Source: Roseobacter litoralis Och 149 (GTDB lineage Bacteria > Pseudomonadota > Alphaproteobacteria > Rhodobacterales > Rhodobacteraceae). Taken from it: a DNA stretch of 63,532 nucleotides. Shown here in pieces: positions 3,977 to 51,221 of the stretch (positions within the stretch are counted from its first letter, which is position 1; every line of letters begins with the position of its first letter). The stretch is from contig NC_015729.1 of assembly GCF_000154785.2 (NCBI RefSeq), positions 1 through 63,532 on the forward strand. Reading direction: 5' to 3'. A model generated the notes under the pieces. That model made no database searches. It had not been told where the DNA came from and saw only the letters and a program-made list of their open reading frames with translations. Both the position numbers and the translations under genes were made by a program.

Positions 3977-4567
3977 TCACGACTTGCGGCCAAAGCCGCG
4001 CATCGCGCCCAAGCCACCGATACCGGCGATCAGCAAAAGCGCGGATGCGGGCAACGGAACCTGAGACAACTCCAGGTCCCAAGTGGCAACTTCGTCAGGA
4101 TTAGGGCCGAAGCTACCTGCAATCGGGTTAAGTACGAATGTGACAACGCCCGTCAGTGTACCAATATCGATTGATCCGTTTGCAGGGGGTGTTGTGAAAG
4201 TGAATGGTGCTCCGCCGACTGTCAGGACTGCATCAAAATTTGCCGATGTCGCCTGATAGTTGAACGTACCGGAATAAAACGTTGACCCAAAGTCCATGGT
4301 CCAGCTGTCAAAGAAGGTCGTATTTGTACGGTGCGCAACGCCGCCCCAAATCCTGGTGTCGCCTACGACTTCAAGTGTGGGGTCGTCTACGGTTGAGTTG
4401 AAGTCGCCCAGATTGAAGGCGGAAGGGCACGGTGCACCAACCGCAGGAGCAACGCCGCCTTCGCAGACGTTGCCGGACACGTTGGATACGATCGTCGCAG
4501 CACTTGCGCCAGTCAGCATAGCGCCAAGCGCAAAGGTCGCCGTCAAAAGCATTTTCGTGAAATTCAT
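3977..4567 (-). CDS. VPLPA-CTERM secreted protein 2 (exosortase substrate)
   Basis: A 196-residue exported protein with a signal peptide (about 1-23, ending GASA) and a C-terminal VPLPA-CTERM tail at 170-196 (VPLPA, hydrophobic segment, RGFGRKS). The tail is almost identical to that of the gene at 2881-3579, and the bodies share the CEGGV, NLGDF and IWGGVAHR motifs. It is therefore a shorter paralog and a likely second substrate of the exosortase at 6574-8178. AGGAG lies 6 bases before the ATG. It has its own terminator. The role of the exported domain is unknown. Confidence 0.88.
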   Translation of the reverse strand: MNFTKMLLTATFALGAMLTGASAATIVSNVSGNVCEGGVAPAVGAPCPSAFNLGDFNSTVDDPTLEVVGDTRIWGGVAHRTNTTFFDSWTMDFGSTFYSGTFNYQATSANFDAVLTVGGAPFTFTTPPANGSIDIGTLTGVVTFVLNPIAGSFGPNPDEVATWDLELSQVPLPASALLLIAGIGGLGAMRGFGRKS

Positions 4568-4787
4568 TTTACTCTCCTCATATTGCCATACTGCTCACGG
4601 GCAGCGGCCAAACTCATAGAACGACCTAGTCACAATCGACCTAGCCATCAATAAACACCTATTTTTTATATTAGTTTTAACACGATTGCAAAGTATTCTG
4701 GCGGATAACGTCTTGGAAAACGCGAAATATGCCCAGAGCAAGGGCACGTTGTTAGGGAGAGCGTGCAAGAAGTGGTCGGCGAATTCC

Positions 4788-4907: not shown

Positions 4908-6329
4908 TCAGTCGCGCGCGTAGACGTCCTCGTAGCGGATGATGTCGTCTTCACCCAGATAGCTGCCGGTCTGCACTTCGATCAAGACCATGGGCACTTT
5001 GCCGGGGTTTTCCATGCGGTGCGTGGCCCCCAGCGGGATGTAGACGGATTGGTTCTCACTGACGAGTTTCACCGTCTCGTCCACTGTGACGCGTGCCGTG
5101 CCCTCCACCACGATCCAATGTTCAGACCGGTGGTGATGGCTTTGCAGCGACAGGGCGGCGCCGGGATGCACATGGATGCGCTTGACCTGAAAGCGCTGGC
5201 CGATCACGAGGCTTTCGAACCAGCCCCAGGGGCGGTGATCTTTGGGGAAGGATTCAGCCTGCAGGGCGGATTTTTCCTTCAGCGCGGCCACGGCCAGTTT
5301 CACGTCCTGCGCGCGGGATTTATCCGCCACCAGCACCGCGTCGGGCATGGCCACGACGATGGTGTTTTCCAGCCCGATGCCTACAACCTCGAGCGCAGCA
5401 CTTTCCGAGCGCAGCAGCGTGTCGTGGCAGTCGATGGCGGTGGCATTCTCTGAGGTGGCAACGCCTTCGGCATCCGGTCCGGTTTCGGCCCAGACCGCGT
5501 CCCAGCCGCCCAGATCAGACCAGCCTGCTGAAAACGGCACGACGCTGAGGTTGTCGGCCTTTTCCATGACCGCATAATCGATGGAGATATCTTCGGCGCG
5601 GGCCCAGTTGTCCGGGTCCAGCCGCAGGAACCCCAGATCTGCCTTGGCTTGCGCATAGGCACTGGAAACAGGCTCTAACAAAGCGGTTGCGTGGGCTTTG
5701 AAGGCGGCAATGATATCGCTGGCGCGGAACAGGAAGATGCCGGCATTCCACATGAAATGCGCATCTTTCAACATCGCCTCGGCCCGGGTCTGGTCGGGTT
5801 TTTCGACAAAGCGTTTCAGCGGCGCGGGGGTCGTACCCTTAGGGGGGTCCACCAGTTCCAGATAGCCATAGCCCGTTTCGGCCTGCGTCGGCGTGATGCC
5901 AAAGGTCACCAGTTGCCCGGCCTGCGCGGCTGTAACCCCGGCGTTGACCGCTGCACTGAACGCCTGCGCATCGGGGATCACATGGTCAGACGGGGCCACT
6001 AGCATCAGCCCGTCGGGATCGCTTGCGGCGATATGACAGGCGGCGGCCAGTACGGCGGGGGCAGTGTTGCGCCCCGCAGGTTCGATCAGGATCGCGCCGG
6101 GGTCGACGCCGATGCCCTGCAATTGCTCAGTCACGATAAAGCGGAAATCAGAGGCCGTGACCACCACGGGGGGCGCATAGGCTGCACCCGAAAGTCGGCG
6201 GGCAGAGGCCTGAAACAGGGTCTCATCCCCCAGCAGGTTTGCGAATTGCTTGGGGTAGGATTTGCGCGACAAAGGCCATAGCCGCGTACCGGAGCCGCCG
6301 CATAACAAAACAGGGGTGATCATGTTCAT
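4908..6329 (-). CDS. manC: Mannose-1-phosphate guanylyltransferase / mannose-6-phosphate isomerase
   Basis: Bifunctional cytosolic enzyme of GDP-mannose synthesis: it isomerises fructose-6-P and mannose-6-P and couples mannose-1-P to GTP. The N-terminal nucleotidyltransferase domain has LLCGGSGTRLWPLSR and a following YPKQF. The C-terminal type II PMI cupin has HVHPGAALSLQSH and an EHWIVVEGTARV strand. The open frame extends to 6419, but the start chosen here (MNMITP, 6329) is preceded by AAGGAG and matches family N-termini, giving 473 residues, the usual length. The phosphomannomutase at 12954-14348 would supply mannose-1-P. It is transcribed divergently from the exosortase gene. Confidence 0.93.
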   Translation of the reverse strand: MNMITPVLLCGGSGTRLWPLSRKSYPKQFANLLGDETLFQASARRLSGAAYAPPVVVTASDFRFIVTEQLQGIGVDPGAILIEPAGRNTAPAVLAAACHIAASDPDGLMLVAPSDHVIPDAQAFSAAVNAGVTAAQAGQLVTFGITPTQAETGYGYLELVDPPKGTTPAPLKRFVEKPDQTRAEAMLKDAHFMWNAGIFLFRASDIIAAFKAHATALLEPVSSAYAQAKADLGFLRLDPDNWARAEDISIDYAVMEKADNLSVVPFSAGWSDLGGWDAVWAETGPDAEGVATSENATAIDCHDTLLRSESAALEVVGIGLENTIVVAMPDAVLVADKSRAQDVKLAVAALKEKSALQAESFPKDHRPWGWFESLVIGQRFQVKRIHVHPGAALSLQSHHHRSEHWIVVEGTARVTVDETVKLVSENQSVYIPLGATHRMENPGKVPMVLIEVQTGSYLGEDDIIRYEDVYARD

Positions 6330-22871: not shown

Positions 22872-24529
22872 TATTTTGTTGAAGAAGTCTTGTTGCTTTG
22901 AAGCAAGTCCTTTGATTCACTCGCTATTGTGGATTGGGGGAGGATTTTGCGATGATGGGCATTCAGGAAGCTCCGGCGCTGCTGTTTTACGACTTTGACA
23001 TGGAGGCGCATGTCCCGTCGGACCATATGCTGCGGGAGATTGACCGGTTTCTGGACGTTGGCACAATCCGCCAGCAGTTGAAGCAGTATTACAGCCACCT
23101 CGGACGTCCCTCGATTGATCCTGAACTGATCGTACGGATGCTGATAGTTGGATATGCTATGGGCATCCGGTCAGAACGGCGGCTTTGTGACGAAGTTCAT
23201 TTGAACCTGGCCTATCGCTGGTTCTGCCGCCTCGGCTTGAACCAAAAGGTACCCGATCACAGCACGTTCTCTAAATACCGCCCCTCTTGTCTTATGAATT
23301 GGGCAGTTCCTGTGCGAAGCCACCGTTGCACGCTGTATCTCGGAAGGTCTGGTCGGTGGTCATGGATTTGCTGTTGATGCCAGCTTAATCGAAGCAGATG
23401 TCGACAGAATGAACTCAACTGCTCAGGCAGATTGGGACGCATCCGCCATCGATCCGGATGATGCGCCCCAGGCTGTCCGGGAATACCTTGATGTTCTTGA
23501 CGACAAAGCGTTTGGAGCGTCAACATCTGTCAAACCCAAATTCACGTCGCATTCCGACCCGGCCAGCCAATGCCTCTCGGGACATTGCTGTGCAATGCCC
23601 TGCCGGTAATAGACTGCGGCGCGCAAGGGCCCTGCGATCTTCACGTATTCGAACAACTATCTGATCGACACGGACCATTCCGTCATCGTGGATATCGAGG
23701 CGACACGCTCAATCAGGCAGGCCGAAGTGGGCGCGGCGCAAACCATGGTTGGTCGAACAGAAGAGCGCTTTGGTATCAAACCGGACTGGCTCGTTGCGGA
23801 TACTGCCTATGGATCGGCGGAGAACCTCGCGTGGCTGACAAAGAAGCGCAGCATCATTCCGTTTATCCCTCTGGTCCATTGCCCGGCAGTGCATGTTTAC
23901 ATGCATGAGAGGGGACAAGTCGGAGCGTAAGGATTGCTCATTTTCCCGTTCCGACTTCGAATGGGACGAAGACAACGACCGCTATACCTGCCCTGAAGGC
24001 CAGCACCTGTTGCAGTCCCGCCGGAACTATTCTGACCCGCGCAGGAAAGAGCCAAAAACCGGGCGGCGCAGATACCGCGCCACCAAAGCAATATGCGATG
24101 CGTGCCCCTCAAAACCAAAATGCTGCCCAAACACTAACACCCGCTTCATCGGTCGCGAAGAACATGAGGACGCGCGTGACTTTGCCCGACTGGCTGCCAA
24201 GTCTCCCTTCAACCCCAAGGCCCAGGCCAAACGCAAAAAGGTCGAGATGCTCTTCGCCCACCTCAAACGCACTCTCGGCCTGGGGCGGCTCCGGCTTCGA
24301 GGCACCTGCGGTGTACAGGACGAATTTACACTCGCAGCAATCGCCCAGAACCTCCGAAAACTTGCAAAACTAAGGCCCAAGACCGCCGGAACAAGGATCG
24401 CGATATGATCTGAACCACCAAAACGACAGAACAACAAGCCGCCCAGTACAACGGGCGGAACAATAAGCCCGGGACCAACGCCGCGAGGCGGCCAACCCCC
24501 CAAATCACGGCGACTTCTTCAACAAAATA
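22872..24529 (+). mobile_element. IS1182-family element inserted in the IS5 relic
   Basis: 18-bp perfect inverted ends TATTTTGTTGAAGAAGTC at 22872-22889 and, reversed, 24512-24529. The transposase (22934-24408) begins MMGIQEAPALLFYDFDMEAHVP and contains HLGRPSIDPELIVRMLIVGY, WFCRLGLNQKVPDHSTFSK, KAFGASTSVKPKFTSHSDP, LIDTDHSVIVDIEATRS, WLVADTAYGSAENLAWL and KKVEMLFAHLKRTLGLGR. These are in different frames: there are breaks near 23280-23330 and 23570-23640, plus a third at 23877-23913 caused by a small palindromic insertion. The element is dead. Confidence 0.87.
23877..23913 (+). repeat. Small palindromic element, copy A (in IS1182 transposase)
   Basis: About 37 extra bases between the codons for PFIPLV and DKSERKD of the transposase. 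Head TGCCCGGCAG, stem TGCATGT, loop TT, stem ACATGCA, tail TGAGAGGG. It shifts the frame by one. It shares its architecture with copies at 28386, 29120 and 29857. Confidence 0.75.
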
Positions 24530-25246
24530 GGCCAATTCTGCCCGCAACCAATCCGCATCAAATGCGCGGTGAACCAACATGCGATCGGCGGACAGGCCGT
24601 CAATGAGATCGGGCACGGCGCTTCGATCATGTGCCTGACCAGGCATCAGGCAGAAATTGATGAGATTTCCCAAGGCGCCTGTGAGGGCAAGTATCTTGGT
24701 TGTGATCCCACCACGCGAATGTCCTATGGCCTGGCTGAGAGCCTTCCTTTTCGCCCTGACCAGAGCGGTGGACTTTGACGATAGAGCCGTCAATCGTTGC
24801 ATACTCAAAATTGACACCAGAGGATAAGGCTCTGAACATGCGATAAAAAGCATCGGCTTTCACCCACCGGCGGAACCGTTTCAAGATCGAATTCCACTTA
24901 CCGAACTCCTTGGGTAGTTCACGCCCCTTCGCCCCTGTGTGCACGATCCACAGAGCGGCTTCAATACACAAGCGCGAATCGCGGCCAGTTTGGCCCGCAT
25001 GCTTCGAAGTTCTACGGCAAAAGGGTTCAATAATCGCTCAATGGGCATCGGTCAGTACCCGTCGGATCAAGGCTGCTCTCCATTGTTTGCAACCTTGAAT
25101 CAGAAGTCGCGCCAATTGGGAATCCTGAACGTCAACAAGCCCTAGTAGAATACATCTAGCTGATCTATAGGTACTTCTAGTGATTCAGGATATCTTTACA
25201 CTGTGATGAGATACCTTAATTTCACACAATTGTGACAGGGTCTTTC

Positions 25247-26458
25247 ATGGCGTTACATTCTGACCGGCACATTCTGATTGTGGTAGAAAATCTGCCGGTC
25301 CCGCTGGATCGGCGCGTCTGGCTTGAGGCAACCTCGCTGCAACAGGCAGGCTATGAAGTATCTGTGATCTGTCCTATGGGCTGCGGTTGGAACAAAACCT
25401 ACGAGGTGATCGACGGCGTTCACATTTATCGCCATTCGGAGCCGCCTGAAGCTCATTCAGGGGCTGTGGCCTATGCACGCGAATACCTGCATGCCATGTG
25501 GCACTGGTTTTGTCTGGCTCGGACGGTATGGCGGCGCAAACCCTTTCAGGTTATCCAGGGTTGCAATCCGCCAGATTTGATTTTCGTGTTGGCGCTGTGG
25601 TACCGGTTTTGGGGCGTCAGCTATCTGTTTGATCACCACGATGTCTGCCCTGAATTGTACGAGGCGAAATTCGACAAGCAGGGACTGCTTTACAAGATAA
25701 TGCTGATCTGTGAACGACTCACCTTTGCAACAGCGTCCGTGTCTATGGCTACCAACGGTAGTTTCCGTGACATCGCAATTAGGCGTGGCAAGATGGCCTC
25801 GGAGGATGTGTTCGTAGTCCGGTCTGCGCCCAAAATCGATACGTTCCTGCCCGGTCCGGGTGATCCAGTCTACCGCAAGGGTGCCAAAACGGTGATGGGT
25901 TATGTGGGTGTTATTGGCCAGCAGGAAGGGATGGACTTGCTGGTGCAGGCTGCGCGCCATCTGATCAAGGACTTAAACCATACGGACGTACATTTTGTCA
26001 TTGCAGGTTTTGGCCCAACTCTGGATGAGGTTGTTGCCGATGCCGAAGCGCAGGGTGTCGGCGATTATTTCACCTTTACAGGCCCGCTTTACGGGCCGGA
26101 TCTATTGGATGCTCTCAACGTGATTGACATCGGTGTGTCGCCTGACCCCAAGAACCCGATGAACGATATCTCGACGATGAACAAGACAATGGAGTACATG
26201 ACTCTAGAGAAACCCAGCGTACAGTTCGACCTGACTGAGGGGCGTGTGTCGGCCGGCGAGGCTTCGCTTTATGCTTTGCCCAACGATCCCGTCGATTTTG
26301 CCAACAAACTCGCCGAGTTGATTGCCGATTCCGCCCGTGGAGTTGAGATGGGTAAAAAGGGCAGAGCCCGTGTCTTGGATAACCTGTCCTGGACGCACAC
26401 GACCCCACAGCTTTTGAAGGCCTATGACCGAATTTACGCCAAGCGGAGCAAGGCGTGA
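25247..26458 (+). CDS. Glycosyltransferase family 4
   Basis: Cytosolic GT-B enzyme expected to add one sugar to the lipid-linked repeat unit. The N-terminal domain begins HILIVVENLPVPLDRRVWLEA, a WbuB-like start, and contains VYRHSEP-like and DHHDVCPELYEAKF segments. The C-terminal domain has GYVGVIGQQEGMDLL, VHFVIAGFGP and the family EGRVSAGEASL region near the donor site. A GTG at 25232 would add five residues; the ATG at 25247 is preceded by CAGGG and is preferred (403 residues). It stands alone between two IS relics. Donor and acceptor are unknown. Confidence 0.85.
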   Translation: MALHSDRHILIVVENLPVPLDRRVWLEATSLQQAGYEVSVICPMGCGWNKTYEVIDGVHIYRHSEPPEAHSGAVAYAREYLHAMWHWFCLARTVWRRKPFQVIQGCNPPDLIFVLALWYRFWGVSYLFDHHDVCPELYEAKFDKQGLLYKIMLICERLTFATASVSMATNGSFRDIAIRRGKMASEDVFVVRSAPKIDTFLPGPGDPVYRKGAKTVMGYVGVIGQQEGMDLLVQAARHLIKDLNHTDVHFVIAGFGPTLDEVVADAEAQGVGDYFTFTGPLYGPDLLDALNVIDIGVSPDPKNPMNDISTMNKTMEYMTLEKPSVQFDLTEGRVSAGEASLYALPNDPVDFANKLAELIADSARGVEMGKKGRARVLDNLSWTHTTPQLLKAYDRIYAKRSKA

Positions 26459-26512
26459 TGCTGGACGCGCGTTAAAGTTCGTGGGCCAAAACTATACAAC
26501 TGAACGCTGATT

Positions 26513-27231
26513 TTAGGCAGCCTCCTGAAAGAGCTGATGCATGAATGCAATCTCGCCTTTAACGCGTGGCTGCTTGTTGTGAATGTGGTCTCTCTTGAGT
26601 GTCCTTTTCGTCTCGATCCCCGCTAACGTCGCCTGCGCAGATCGCAATGATCGGAAAATCTGGCGGTAACCGAGCAACCTCTTCAATGCCGCATGTTCAC
26701 TCTCAATGCGGTTGTTGAGATACTTGCGGCCGATGTGAGTAACGGAGTTGAAGTGCGGGTCATAATCGTGATTGATCTCGCGGATCACCTTACGATATGT
26801 CGGTGCCTTGTCCGTGCAAATAGATACGGGTCGATGCAAGCGCACCCGTTCAATAGCTCTATTTAGAAAGGCTTTAGCAGCTTTGACGTCTCGTCTTGCT
26901 GTGAGGCGAAACTCCACCAGCTAGCCGTTCGCATCAATTGCGCGCCACAGGTACCGCCATTTTCCACCGGCCCATATGTAGGTTTCGTCAACATGCCAAT
27001 CGAGGCTGCTGCGTTTAAGGTGCTTCTCTGTTCGCTTGGCCAATTCAGGGCCAAACTTTTGAACCCAGCGGTAGACAGTAGATCGATCTACGTCCAGGCC
27101 CCGTTCTGCCTGCAGATCAACGAGGTCTTGGTAGGACAACTGATATCGCAGATACATCCGCACGGCACGCAGAATAACTGCAGCCGGAAATCAATGTCGC
27201 CCGAACGGCTGTTTACGCGGCACGATATGGT
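26513..27231 (-). pseudogene. IS6-family transposase relic
   Basis: The minus strand gives RKQPFGRH, an in-frame TGA, then FPAAVILRAVRMYLRYQLSY, DVDRSTVYRWVQKFGPEL, LDWHVDETYIWAGGKWRYL, AIDANG and an amber TAG (26918-26920). LVEFRLTARRDVKAAKAFL, ICTDKAPTYRKVIRE and RIESEHAALKRLLGYRQIF follow. All three DDE residues survive, but two nonsense codons stop translation. Only the open frames 26921-27163 and 26513-26917 remain. Confidence 0.87.
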
Positions 27232-27430
27232 CCTTTCGCTACGCTCACTCTAACAAAACTAGGTTAATGCAACATGTATAACCGCCCTCAACGCAAGAGG
27301 TGATTTTGAGAAGTTTCTGACGCGCCACCGGGTGCTAACATGTATCCGGCTTCTGATGCTGCTGTCTACTTGCTGCGGGCCCGTAGGTGTTCGAAGTTCA
27401 AGGTCTGATCAGTCGTAAGCGGTGCGCCGT

Positions 27431-28946
27431 TCACACGGGTTTGGCGTAGTTCCACGGCAGCAACTCTTTTATGTCTGTTTGTTTGTGCCCGCCTGCGATA
27501 GCTCTCAGGACACCGGACAGATAGCCATGGGTTCGATCCCGCTGAGTTTGCAGGTCTCGATCAGGGATGCGATGACGGCCCAGTTTTGCGGTTGAGGGCG
27601 ATGGGACGGATGGTGCGCTCGACGGCGTTGGAATCCAGTTCGATGCGACCGTCGTCGATGAACCGGCATAACCCTTCCCAGTATTTAGCGATGTATTTCA
27701 GGGCCTCTCCGGTCGGCGATTTTGCCGAGACGCGGGCGCGGTTCTGGGCGAGCCAGAGCTCGAAGGCGTCGATGATGGGTTCTGAGCGGTCCTGTCGTGC
27801 AGCGTGCCGTTGATCGGCAGGCAGGCCGCGCAGGTCTTTTTCGATATGGTAGAGTGCCTGGATTTGAGCCAGGCCTTCCTGCGCGATTGGAGCAGCGCCA
27901 GATTGGGTGACGTCATGCAATTTTCGCCGCGCGTGTGCCCAGCAATAGGCCAGCACCACATCCTGTGTAGGGCGTTTGAGCAAGCGGTTATAGCCTGCGT
28001 ATCCATCAACCTGCAGGGCGCCGCTGAAGCCGCTCAAGATGTTATCCGCATGCTGCCCTGACCGACCGGGCGCATAGGTAAACGCCACTCCGGGCGGATC
28101 ATCCCCGCCCCATGGCCTGTCATCACGGGCAAGGGCCCAGAAGTATCCGGTTTTGGTGCGTTTGCGCCCTGGGGCCAGAACCGGTGCGGGTGTTTCGTCC
28201 ATGAAGAGTTTGGTGGAGCGCTTCAGATCGGCCGTCAGCGCATCATAAACCGGGGTCAGTTCAAACGCCGACTTGCCGACCCATGCGGCCAAGGTCGAGC
28301 GGTCCAAATCGATCCCCTGACGGCTATAGATTTGCGCCTGCCGATAAAGTGGCTAGTGGTCCGCGTATTTTGAGACGAGCACATGCACTGCCCGACAGGC
28401 GATTTGCTATGCAAATCTGCCGAAAGGGGCGAGCGTTGCTTCGGTTGGCATACCGCCCGCGATGATGTGGGCGGGTGCAGGAGCCTGAGCAATCCTGCCC
28501 TCGCAGGACCGGCAAGCGTATTCAGGGCGGCGGGTGACAATTACCCGGAACTGGACCGGAATGATGTCCAGCCGTTCGCTGACATCCTCGCCAATGACGT
28601 GACGCTCAGTTCCGCAGGCGCAGGATCGCTCGGGTTCAATGACCACCTCAACCCGTTCCAGATGTTTGGGTAGTGATCCGCGATTGGTCTGGCGCGGCTT
28701 TGGGGGCCGCACGGGCGCGTTCCGCTCTTCTGCGTCGATCTCGGCTTCCACCTGCGCGATGGTGGTCTCGATATCCTCGAATTCCAGTTCATACTGGGCC
28801 GGGTCAATCTTCTCGGATTTGGACCCGAAGAGCGCCTTCTTGAACGAGGCAACCAAGGCCTCAAGTCGCGCATTCTGATCCTGTTGCGCACGAATGGTCG
28901 CCTTCAGATCGGCGATATTATCAGGTAATTTATCAGGCACGCTCAT
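27431..28946 (-). pseudogene. IS66-family transposase TnpC, broken
   Basis: Minus strand from about 28946: MSVPDKLPDNIADLKATIR, FKKALFGSKSEKIDP, the zinc-finger-like YACRSCEG, and IIAGGMPTEATLA. Then come 42 foreign bases with a TAG, and the frame resumes with HVLVSKYADH, another TAG, PLYRQAQIYSRQGIDLDRS, KLFMDETPAPVLAPG, VDGYAGYNRLL, YCWAHARRKL and SNAVERTIRPIALNRK. A deletion with frameshift follows, and the proper end ELLPWNYAKPV with TGA at 27431-27433 is visible in another frame. At least four lesions, so inactive. Confidence 0.88.
28386..28427 (+). repeat. Small palindromic element, copy B (in IS66 tnpC)
   Basis: Exactly 42 extra bases between the codons for TEATLA and HVLVSKYADH of TnpC, so in frame, but the insert contains TAG. 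Head CACTGCCCGACAG, then GC, stem GATTTGC, loop TAT, stem GCAAATC, and a diverged tail TGCCGAAAGG. It is the most diverged of the four copies. Confidence 0.75.
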
Positions 28947-29001
28947 GCCCAATCTCATGACAAAACAAAGGCAGCATGGCCCGTGCAAACGGCTCCGTGA
29001 G

Positions 29002-29394
29002 TCACTCCGCCGCAGCAGGTGCCGCCACCTCTAAAGGCTGAACCCGCCGCCAATCAAGACCAGCAAAGAGCGCTTCAAACTGAGCCGGTTCCAGACGCAT
29101 CACCCCGTTCTTGATCGCCCCCTCTCATCGCTGCTTTGCAGCGACTGCCGGGCAGTGGGACCATGTGAAGCTGTTATCTTCGAGCCGTTTGTAGGCCATC
29201 ACCAACCCGCTACCGTCCCAGTAGATCAGCTTCAGCCGATCCGCGCGCTTGGCCCGGAACACATAGACCGACCCATCAAACGGCTTCTGGCGCAGGTGGC
29301 TCTGCACCAAAGCGGCCAGCCCGTCATGACCCTTGCGGAAGTCCACCGGATCGCTGGCTACAAAGATCCGAACCTTGTGGGAGAGGGCAATCAC
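29002..29394 (-). pseudogene. IS66-family accessory protein TnpB, interrupted
   Basis: Starts VRIFVASDPVDFRKGHDGLA and continues VYVFRAKRADRLKLIYWDGS and YKRLEDNSFTW, the standard IS66 Orf2 protein. After that Trp come 39 extra bases ending the frame at TGA. Beyond the insert the proper C-terminus (AIKNGVMRLEPAQFEALF, GLDWRRVQPLEVAAPAAAE) is intact, ending at 29002. tnpA is not seen, so the left part of the element is lost where the IS110 fragment begins. Confidence 0.87.
29120..29158 (-). repeat. Small palindromic element, copy C (in IS66 tnpB)
   Basis: 39 extra bases (13 codons) inside tnpB. On the minus strand: head CCACTGCCCGGCAG, stem TCGCTGC, loop AAA, stem GCAGCGA, tail TGAGAGGG. In frame by length, but the TGA in the tail stops translation. 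The exact edges can slide by a base or two. Confidence 0.78.
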
Positions 29395-29398
29395 GTGG

Positions 29399-29644
29399 TT
29401 ATGGCCCGTGCGATCTCAGCAAGACCCGGTGATAATTACCGGTCGCCTCAAAGGCTACACGAACTGGACGTCCGTATTCCTTCAACGCGGTGACGAGGCG
29501 GTTAGAGTCGGCAAGGCTGTTCAAGACGGTTAAACGGCGTCGGCGTTTCTTATCTGGAACAGCAATCAAAACTTCATGCCGCGCTTTGGCAATGTCGATG
29601 GCAACCAAAACAGGTGTATCTTGTGCAATAGTCATCTCGGTCAT
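29399..29644 (-). pseudogene. IS110-family transposase N-terminal fragment
   Basis: From ATG 29644, after AAAGGAGACC, the minus strand reads MTEMTIAQDTPVLVAIDIAK, VLIAVPDKKRRRR and VRVAFEATGNYHR. This is the DEDD-domain start of a second, different IS110 transposase. It is cut after GNYHR where IS66 sequence begins, and the rest is absent. Confidence 0.82.
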
Positions 29645-29781
29645 AGTCGGTCTCCTTTGCGGTGTGGTTTGTGCAAAACCACTGTAGGGACCTGAGACCC
29701 GGCTATGACCACCTGCTGCGCTATTTGACGGCTGCGCAGGCAATCATAGCCTCTCAATCAGCGTTATTCCGAAGGTGTTAT

Positions 29782-30093
29782 GGCACCGAATATGTCAGCG
29801 GCAAGCTGATGCAATGGGCTGAGAAACGCAATGTTCGGCTGGAATACATCCAGCCCCACTCTCACACATGCTTTGCATGTGTTGCCGTGCAACGGGGCAA
29901 GCCGCAGCAGAACGCTTATATCGAACGCTACAACCGCACCGTTCGTGGCGAATGGCTGGGGCAATATATCTTTGAAACCATCGAGGAGGCACAAGAGCAA
30001 GCGACTGAATGGCTCTGGACTTACAACAATGAGCGACCCAACATGGGCATAGGTGGCATCACACCCGCCATGAAACTGAAAACAGCCGCCTGA
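29782..30093 (+). pseudogene. IS3-family OrfB C-terminal fragment with in-frame insert
   Basis: Plus-strand frame carrying GTEYVSGKLMQWAEKRNVRL, EYIQP, 13 inserted residues, GKPQQNAYIERYNRTVRGEW, TIEEAQEQATEWLWTYNNER and GGITPAMKLKTAA. It is the last third of an IS3-family integrase, holding the catalytic Glu region. The N-terminal two thirds are missing. The inserted 13 residues come from palindromic element copy D. A 7-bp CCCCATT/AATGGGG hairpin follows at 30108-30124. Confidence 0.85.
29857..29895 (-). repeat. Small palindromic element, copy D (in IS3 orfB, read through)
   Basis: 39 extra bases between the codons for EYIQP and GKPQQNAY, a motif normally contiguous in IS3 integrases. On the minus strand: TTGCACGGCAA, stem CACATGC, loop AAA, stem GCATGTG, tail TGAGAGTG. 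On the coding strand it is open and encodes HSHTCFACVAVQR. Confidence 0.8.
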
Positions 30094-30325
30094 ATTCTAT
30101 GGCTGAACCCCATTAAAAATGGGGGGATTGCCAGAAAACTGCCCAGCTGTGAAACCCCTTTGATTCAATCAAAACTGTAACCGCTTTAAAGAGCGACTGG
30201 ATATTATGTGTAAAAAAACATCTGCATAGAATTTGCGCGCAGAGCCATTGAGTTTCTGTTCTATTTACAGTTCGATAGCCCGTGTCTGCGCCTGTGGTAT
30301 ACCGGTGTGGAATGTGCTTGCTGCT

Positions 30326-31492
30326 TTAATCGGAGTGAAACAGGTCACGGGTAAAGATTTTATCCGACACATCTGCTAGGACAGGGGCATGCCGGTTGGC
30401 GATGATGATGTCGCTTTGCGCCTTAAATGTAGCGAGATCGGTGATGACTTTGGAGCCATAAAACGTGGGCTCGCGCAGTTCGGGTTCGTAGAGGATAACC
30501 TCGATTCCTTTGGCCTTAATTCGCTTCATGATCCCCTGGATCGAGCTTTGGCGGAAATTGTCTGACCCTTCTTTCATCGCTAGGCGGTACACGCCGACCA
30601 AGGCGGGTTTCCGAGCAAGAATCTGTTCGGACAGGAAGTCTTTTCGGGTACGATTGGCGTCTACAATAGCCTGCATCAGATTTTGCGGTACGGCAGCGTA
30701 ATTGGCCAGCAGCTGCTTGGTGTCCTTGGGTAAGCAATAGCCGCCATAGCCAAAAGATGGATTGTTGTAATGCTGTCCGATGCGCGGGTCGAGGCAGATG
30801 CCTTCGATGATTTGGCGGCTGTCTATGCCACCGGCCATTGCATAGCTATCAAGTTCGTTGAAATAGGCCACGCGCATTGCAAGGTAAGTGTTGGCAAAAA
30901 GTTTGATAGCTTCGGCCTCTGACGGGTCGGTTAACAGTACTGGGATGTCTGATGTTGCGGCACCCTCCAACAAGAGGTCGGCGAACTGACGTCCACGTGG
31001 GCCGGTATCACCCACCACGATGCGGCTGGGGTGCAGGTTGTCGTAAAGCGCACGACCCTCACGTAGGAATTCGGGTGAAAAGATCAGCCGATCACTGTCG
31101 AAATGGGCTCGCGCATTTGCTATGTAGCCAACGGGAATCGTGGATTTGACCACCACAGTACTGGTTTCGCTCATCTTGAGGGCGCGTTCTGCCACAGTAT
31201 CGACGCTGGATGTGTTGAAATAGTTTGTCTTGGGGTCGTAGTCGGTAGGGGTGGCTATGATCACCACATCTGCTTCACGCAGGGCAGTGTCAGAATCTGT
31301 AGAGGTTGTAAGTCGCAGGTCCTTGTCGGCGAGAAATGCGGCCAGTTCGGTGTCTTGGATCGGGCTTTGTCCTGCATTGACCGCAGCCAAGCGCTCCACA
31401 TTGAGATCGATGCCGATGACATCATGGTTTTGCGCAAGCAAAGCTGCATTTGACAGGCCGACATAGCCCAGACCTAAAACTGCAATTTTCAT
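30326..31492 (-). CDS. ugd: UDP-glucose 6-dehydrogenase
   Basis: NAD-dependent four-electron oxidation of UDP-glucose to UDP-glucuronate. The 388-residue protein has the Rossmann start [46 protein letters not shown] and the catalytic cysteine at residue 253 in [14 protein letters not shown]. The length suits the short bacterial Ugd class. It stands alone between an IS3 fragment and a family 2 glycosyltransferase on the same strand 254 bases away. Its product could feed the epimerase at 19170 or be used directly. Confidence 0.94.
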
Positions 31493-50699: not shown

Positions 50700-50912
50700 A
50701 ACCTTCCGATGGGGCCTGGTTCCTCTACCTGCCGCCATACTCGCCGGACTTGAATCCCATCGAACAAGCCTTCTCAAAGCTGAAAGCCCATCTTCGAAAG
50801 ATCGGGGCCAGAACTTTCACAGAGGTCTTCGAGGCCATCGGAGCAATTTGCGATCTCTACGACCCGACCGAGTGCTGGAACTACTTCAAGGCTGCAGGAT
50901 ATGTCTCAGGTT
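50700..50912 (+). pseudogene. IS630-family transposase C-terminal fragment
   Basis: Plus-strand frame reading [56 protein letters not shown] and KAAGYVSG then [15 protein letters not shown] carries the third catalytic acid of IS630 transposases. The N-terminal two thirds are absent. Its 3' end abuts an IS200 relic. Confidence 0.85.
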
Positions 50913-51134
50913 AATGTCGAAACGCTTTAGGTCGCTAATCGCCAGTTTCGGCGGGACTGACACGAACGTGTGGACGTGGTCGCTTGAGAGCACGCCGCGG
51001 ATGATCTCGACGCCACTCTGCTCACAGACTTGACGGCAGATATCGCGGACCCGCAGTTTGATGTCGCCCTGCAGCACCTTATGGCTATACTTGGTCGACC
51101 AAACGAGGTGGTAGTAGACGCAATGCCTCCCCAT
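50913..51134 (-). pseudogene. IS200/IS605-family TnpA relic
   Basis: The minus strand from ATG 51134 gives MGRHCVYYHLVWSTKYSHK, ICRQVCEQSGVEIIRGVLS and SSDHVHTFVSVPPKLAISDL. HVH is the HUH metal site of Y1 transposases. The frame then runs into foreign sequence, so the segment with the catalytic tyrosine is gone. Just upstream, at about 51173-51195, CCCGTCTGAAAGACAGGGGG is the imperfect hairpin expected at an IS200 end. Confidence 0.83.
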
Positions 51135-51221
51135 GGAATACGAACATAGGACCATTTTTCGTGCTAAAGCGCACCCGTCTGAAAGACAGGGGGTTTAGAC
51201 CAAAGAGTAGATATTAAACGC

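Follow-up and report, generated by a model that had tools for sequence, protein, structure and literature searches.

Background

Two classes of repetitive extragenic palindromes (REPs) have been described, distinguished by the tetranucleotide tags GTAG and CGTC (PMC3733652). GTAG-class REPs are moved by RAYT/TnpA-REP (PMC8266576, PMC3733652); CGTC-class REPs, which are mostly alphaproteobacterial and include the Rickettsia elements RPE-4 and RPE-6, have no known transposase and are characterized by their CGTC tag, loops of 4-5 nt, AT first pairs and a mainly dimeric, head-to-head arrangement (PMC3733652). Here we analyse a family of small hairpin elements present in a stretch of 63,532 nucleotides (the window) that forms the whole of contig C2 (NC_015729.1) in the four-contig, 4.75 Mb genome of Roseobacter litoralis Och 149. 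An earlier note on this DNA had reported four palindromic insertions in transposase genes of insertion sequences (ISs). They prove to be members of a widespread family in which the pairing of the stem is kept and its sequence is free.

Most copies are 37-41 nt long and have the form CRY-TGCCCGGCAG-stem-loop-stem'-YGAGAGGG, with a consensus stem of 7-8 bp, a loop mostly of 2-3 nt and the tail YGAGAGGG. They resemble GTAG REPs in being palindromes of 20-40 nt with a 5' tetranucleotide as a possible guide, apparently one active strand and many copies (PMC8266576, PMC3733652). Unlike those mainly extragenic repeats, however, they bear the tag RYTG, are free in stem sequence within one genome, lie mostly inside coding genes of ISs, and have not been found to flank a transposase gene in the 20 Y1 transposase loci inspected. 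With CGTC REPs they share a mostly alphaproteobacterial distribution, small hairpins, intragenic units and no known transposase (PMC3733652), but differ in the RYTG tag, the mostly 2-3 nt loops and the varied first pair, CRTC occurring only as a flank of the target. As to the mainly dimeric arrangement of CGTC REPs, 15 pairs of neighbours separated by less than 100 nt were counted in the set of 240 elements, with a minimum spacing of 8 nt, in loci that are pieces and not whole genomes. A spacing of 8 nt is seen in L257 (565-643), where two elements of opposite orientation face each other with their tails. Palindromic elements within coding genes are also known from Rickettsia, but those measure about 150 bp and lie in host genes, often in frame (PMC10969869), whereas the present ones are about 40 nt, in any frame and mostly in IS genes. 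The family looks like a third, REP-like type that belongs to neither tag class. The partial text of PMC3733652 has no word match for Rhodobacter, Roseobacter or Ruegeria, and a narrow search of open-licence papers returned no description of this element family, in line with the earlier note, which knew of none for roseobacters.

A family of hairpins conserved in pairing

The first set of elements was collected with an exact head-tail pattern search, which yielded at least 119 stretches of genome contigs and 16 viral contigs; four loci of the R. litoralis genome were added. Scanning these loci (983 kb) with a relaxed head and tail and a demand for at least 6 pairs recovered 131 elements, against none in the reversed sequence (133 elements with a slightly wider key; 129 once junctions were merged). 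A second set of 111 further unique elements, from loci of R. litoralis and of a family search and mostly found with a covariance model, likewise faced none in reversed sequence under the same demand. The single design claimed in the earlier note for its four copies is thus borne out well beyond the window. The signal resides in the whole design: the head alone gave 10 one-mismatch matches in the window against 8.0 expected by chance. Pairing is also evident where it was not demanded. Among 128 unique exact head-tail matches, taken in the pattern-found loci only, 93 of the 99 with a core of 16-19 nt have pairs at no fewer than 4 of the 7 outer positions, compared with 11 of the 29 with another core length.

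In an alignment of 70 of 113 unique elements, all preselected for at least 6 pairs, 96.8% of cells are paired, 10 of 12 pairs show double changes, and the covariation score is 0.667 as against 0.160 in shuffled and at most 0.115 in slid alignments. The inner helix, whose sequence is free even within one genome, covaries and is paired in 97.5% of cells. We further recognized an outer helix, formed by CCC of the head and GGG of the tail and paired in 94.8% of cells in the same rows; it covaries as well, being CCC/GGG in 193 of all 240 elements and displaying 16 double changes that keep the pairing and fall into six kinds (e.g. CAC/GTG, CGC/GCG). Between the two helices lies a largely conserved internal loop, GGCA/GAGA, and the pair of head position 10 with tail position 1 is mostly G-U (49/70). 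Compensatory evolution in situ at shared sites was also considered and found no support: the stems at one site either match completely or almost so, or have nothing in common.

A covariance-model search of the bacterial family, with one genome per genus, found further copies with covarying stems, 66 of 150 genomes having a match at E <=0.001. As 42 candidates were scored per genome, counts are lower bounds; the highest, in G007, is at least 41 copies. In R. litoralis itself, where 150 of 2262 first-look candidates were scored, no fewer than 28 matches reach E <=0.1. Outside Rhodobacterales, stem-bearing elements occur for instance in Vreelandella, and pattern matches in unrelated phyla (Brevibacillus, Acidobacteria) have no comparable stem. 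Similar ISs bearing the same element were seen in Vreelandella (Gammaproteobacteria; L014) and Oceaniovalibus (Alphaproteobacteria; L053), which suggests transfer of a filled IS between these lineages.

Insertion sites and a covarying guide

We screened the 133 elements, skipping those with less than 110 nt of flank, for IS relatives with an empty site, and found such relatives among the collected loci for 49. Because the net insert equals the nominal element length in 34 of these (one more in 8, one less in 5, further off in 2), the insertion is clean and free of target duplication. Together with the covarying stems, these empty sites bear out the proposal of a small mobile element selected for its structure. 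Not so the idea that insertion preserves the reading frame: the net length modulo 3 is 0, 1 and 2 in 19, 17 and 13 of the 49 elements. Of the traits of miniature inverted-repeat transposable elements, no target duplication was seen, and the only end pairing seen is the 3-bp outer helix.

The target is (R)YC^G, about four bases, and is used in either orientation. C precedes the cut in 104 of 129 insertions of the first set and 91 of 111 of the second, G follows it in 99/129 and 85/111, and the base two before the cut is T in 73 or C in 38 of the 129. Judged by the longest joined frame, which may lie on the wrong strand, 61 of 99 insertions are antisense and 38 sense to the gene; L118 and L050 are presumably, from their motifs, clear sense and antisense cases, respectively. 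An aspartate follows the junction in 26 of these 99, always in codon phase 0, and is often a residue that we take to be catalytic; C^GAY is preferred when the target is read in antisense, which accounts for part of this number.

Directly 5' of the hairpin lie the four bases RYTG. In both sets, the strongest of 408 couplings between target and element positions joins target -5, i.e., the base two before the cut, to element -2, the base with which RYTG begins. In the first set (n=128) the target:guide combinations T:A, T:G, C:A and C:G number 60, 12, 11 and 21 (odds ratio (OR) 9.5, p 2e-6), and in the second (n=111) 36, 15, 11 and 20 (OR 4.4, p 0.003). When the 238 insertions are reduced to a single one for each of 173 clusters of similar targets, the median OR is 7.0 and the median p 7e-7. 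A coupling of target +1 with head base 2 ranks second in the first set (z 6.1) and third in the second (z 3.9). A joint pairing in which target -6 and -5 would match element -1 and -2 was rejected, as only -5/-2 covaries. Selection of the insertion site appears to depend on base pairing.

Counted from the guide, the covarying contact is 1:-2, and the conserved G of RYTG with the preferred C of the target would form a contact 4:-1. Both are guide-target contacts of IS608, a member of the IS200/IS605 family. In IS608, too, the guide directly 5' of the hairpin pairs with the target, with further contacts 2:-3 and 3:-4 in our numbering, and the IS608 hairpin end, insertion 3' of a short target that remains in the left flank and preference at +1 all have counterparts here (PMC5934647). 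A guide 5' of the hairpin is also part of REP logic (PMC8266576). The covariation follows the guide principle by which IS200/IS605 and REP elements transpose as single strands. Unlike IS608, the present elements lack coding capacity, have one hairpin and no identified partner, and have a right end that the guide leaves unexplained.

A proposed mode of movement

We posit that these are probably REP-like, structure-selected, non-autonomous miniature elements that are moved as a single DNA strand by a Y1/HUH transposase acting in trans. The top strand folds into the outer CCC/GGG helix, the GGCA/GAGA internal loop and the sequence-free stem of 7-9 bp. RYTG would then act as the guide: its first base would pair at the target position two before the cut, and its final G probably with the C that immediately precedes the cut. 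The element is inserted 3' of (R)YC and before G, with no target duplication, and usually breaks the carrier gene. The likeliest mover would be a single-strand transposase of the IS200/IS605 or RAYT type. Supply of the enzyme in trans, as conjectured in the earlier note, fits the evidence.

Consistent with such a mover, genomes with a Y1_Tnp match carry elements more often than those without (13/17 vs 53/133, p 0.008; 150 genomes). The corresponding figures for other families are 11/17 for IS91-type Y2 transposases (OR 2.6), a weak association that was set aside, and 37/72 for IS66 (OR 1.8). Among the 20 Y1 loci, 16 have a readable protein, and from their motifs most are presumably of the IS200 TnpA type. 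IS200 ends are probably not a source of the elements, for the ends differ by eye in the 7 IS200 loci that were lined up.

Several observations weigh against this proposal. As to the enzyme, no mover was found; Y1_Tnp occurs in only 17 of the 150 genomes and is absent from the element-rich G012, G062, G069 and G099; the 20 Y1 loci, which cover 14 of the 17 genomes, have a strong element match only at L233; and the Y1 association may reflect IS load, in view of the figures for IS91-type Y2 and IS66. As to the guide, only one IS608-like contact, 1:-2, covaries, and -6/-1 and -7/h1 do not; mismatches make up 23 of 104 and 26 of 82 counted insertions in the two sets, a further 24 of 128 and 29 of 111 have other letters at these positions, and the element's 3' end, GGG^, differs from the YC^ expected from the same guide. 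The two sides of the outer helix fail to pair in 31 of 240 elements, chiefly as ACC/GGG (13) and then CCC/GGA (5), and the excess of G.T over A.C in the stems (23 vs 14) is not significant (p 0.19). Finally, the second set partly depends on the first, with at least one genome in common (L214, L058) and 5 of its 111 elements from R. litoralis itself.

The family offers a guide-target pairing that can be read from genome sequence alone, in elements that live inside other mobile elements. Because the stem sequence is free and the pairing alone is kept, it also provides a clean system for asking what a structure-reading enzyme needs.

Host genes

The insertions are mostly inside genes of ISs of many families. 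In a Pfam comparison of one open reading frame (ORF) beside each of 128 insertions, transposase and integrase-core families dominate (25 of the 46 families listed), with one phage portal family among the rest. Of 129 insertions, 116 have coding homologues in three or more further loci, with duplicates counted apart, and 6 have none; four of these six we take from their motifs to be in IS630, IS30, IS1595 and IS1182, and another, L084, looks intergenic. For the 111 insertions of the second set, the first loci contain homologues of 105, in three or more loci for 92, and 11 have fewer than two. The likeness to Rickettsia palindromic elements, in the sense of in-frame insertion in host genes, is therefore not upheld, the recognizable genes being mostly those of ISs. 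Viral contig L131, with elements at 5554-5596 (+) and 4547-4587 (-), has one of the few non-IS hosts, which looks like a DNA methyltransferase gene.

This distribution need not imply that ISs are targeted. Insertion might be random, with IS genes being merely tolerant sites; this would be compatible with movement by a transposase acting in trans, and we regard it as a substantial possibility, if a somewhat doubtful one. The target comprises only about four bases, and IS genes are dispensable and numerous. On the same supposition, neutral intergenic DNA should by our estimate give comparable space, yet few intergenic copies were seen, L084 being one of just 6 among 129 insertions without coding relatives.

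Multiplied carrier insertion sequences

A puzzle is posed by ISs whose transposase genes are broken and which have nevertheless multiplied to as many as eight copies, with no intact one detected in the genome. In R. litoralis, all 8 copies of a 1275-bp IS3 carry the element at the same site, seven of them full and 0-2 bases from the consensus and one (L156) without one end; an IS1182 is filled in 4 of 4 copies, as retrieved with one 301-base flank. In both, the frame is open apart from the elements, and the insert shifts it. All 6 full IS3 copies of G012 have the same four elements, with no full element-free relative although fragments exist; G069 has five elements in each of two full IS3 copies, two more copies being partial, and four copies in G050 hold two elements apiece. 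Where the ends of carrier copies were located, 3-bp duplications lie beside 2/7, 2/5 and 1/2 of them. In the orfA end of the G069 IS3 (L204, L223), which holds five hairpin elements, there is also a different palindromic insert of 45 nt, GGACCAGAAAACAGTCC...GGACTGTTTTC.

Among the copies of G012, G050 and G069 we counted 32 nonsynonymous and 16 synonymous changes, with one stop in G069, against a neutral expectation of about 37:11 (one-sided p 0.07). G111 (11 nonsynonymous, 21 synonymous) was excluded for a tract of mostly synonymous differences between L202 and L203, near 1047-1146, which looks like gene conversion between IS copies. The copies may thus have a mild excess of synonymous changes. 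Because the changes are not clearly different from neutral, we favour helper-driven movement, in which interrupted ISs would spread mainly with the transposase of intact relatives, present elsewhere or since lost. It is also possible that gene conversion spread the element among existing IS copies.

Alternatively, the inserts could be removed at the RNA, translation or DNA level, as micro-introns, bypassed segments or excision elements, leaving the carriers active. Multiplication of filled ISs without a detected intact copy, the five elements in each full copy of G069, and the 3-bp target duplications around some filled copies would all fit, and transposase genes cut by up to five elements would still yield protein, amounting to bacterial mobile micro-introns or a DNA-level equivalent. 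We nevertheless consider it improbable, as the elements occur in both orientations, even within one gene, the changes among copies are near-neutral, and efficient removal would permit insertion in host genes, whereas the recognized hosts are mostly IS genes; the first two points in particular lowered a micro-intron or bypass reading. A precedent for tiny hairpin inserts in genes exists in the mobile bypassing elements of yeast mitochondria, from which the present elements differ in occurring in both orientations and in showing, as judged from examples, no matched take-off and landing codons.

Other routes of movement

Spread through an RNA copy and reverse transcription is a very unlikely alternative to movement as a DNA strand. 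The fold would suit RNA as well, including the prevalent G-U pair at head 10/tail 1; on the other hand, no RVT_1 match occurs in the R. litoralis genome, which is estimated to be 100% complete, RVT_1 is not associated with the elements (20/40 vs 46/110 genomes), and the guide-target pairing would have no obvious role. Less likely still is recombination by an IS110-type bridge RNA: IS110-type sequence does follow CCCTCT at junctions in L086, L058 and the window, but the copy in L228 suggests that CCCTCT is the IS110 target, a better reading that led us to reject IS110 as mover in favour of IS110 insertion into element tails, and the covarying ends speak against recognition of fixed end sequences.

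The junction itself, CCCTCT then TTGTCTTA, is found at 23281-23306 of the window, near 88-110 in L058, at 5051-5076 in L086 and near 2953 in L228, where the IS is annotated as of the IS110 family. Such ISs seem to target CCCTCT^ and so to enter the tails of hairpin elements, and the window instance seems to be an IS110 remnant.

Copies in the window

The window has five copies, four of them those of the earlier note, which we found at ends within 1 nt of those it gave. With filters off, these are the four best covariance-model matches in the window, with 58.5, 58.1, 47.9 and 28.7 bits for elements C, A, D and B, respectively; the 70 aligned copies used in training included A, C and D but not B. 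Rfam gave no match above the gathering score in window positions 23000-31000.

Element A (23877..23913, +; 37 nt; stem TGCATGT) is inserted in sense in an IS1182-type transposase gene (22934..24408, +), which is interrupted at 23573 and 23877 and is recognized from its ORFs, with DDE_Tnp_1_6 in the downstream piece. An identical element is present at this position in another IS1182 copy, which lies on contig C3. The other interruption is the new, fifth copy (23573..23611, -; 39 nt; 22.1 bits), antisense in the same IS1182 and not among the 28 genome matches. We consider it real because in L020 a relative of this IS1182 can be aligned to either side of it and lacks exactly these 39 nt.

Element B (28386..28428, +; 43 nt) is antisense in an IS66 transposase gene, a piece of which (27582..28385, -; PF03050, 324 bits, one internal stop) adjoins it. 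Although a member of the family, it is not of quite the same design as the other three, as had been supposed: it represents a subtype with a longer stem, also seen in eight chromosomal copies (L152-L159). Element C (29120..29157, -; 38 nt; stem TCGCTGC) is in sense in a small gene that we take from its motif to be of IS66, and its net insert is 39 relative to L022.

Element D (29857..29894, -; 38 nt), in which CAC of the head pairs with GTG of the tail, is antisense in a transposase gene presumed from its motif to be IS3-type. It was compared with L065, and against one relative its net insert is 39. The preservation of frame claimed for individual copies thus holds for C and D, with no general rule behind it. 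Likewise, the ORF of the IS3-type piece (29662..30093, +) does read through element D, as the earlier note observed, and this is a single case and not the rule. Elsewhere in the window, a truncated IS200-type TnpA fragment (50886-51155, -; Y1, with an HVH motif) is the sole Y1_Tnp match in the R. litoralis genome.

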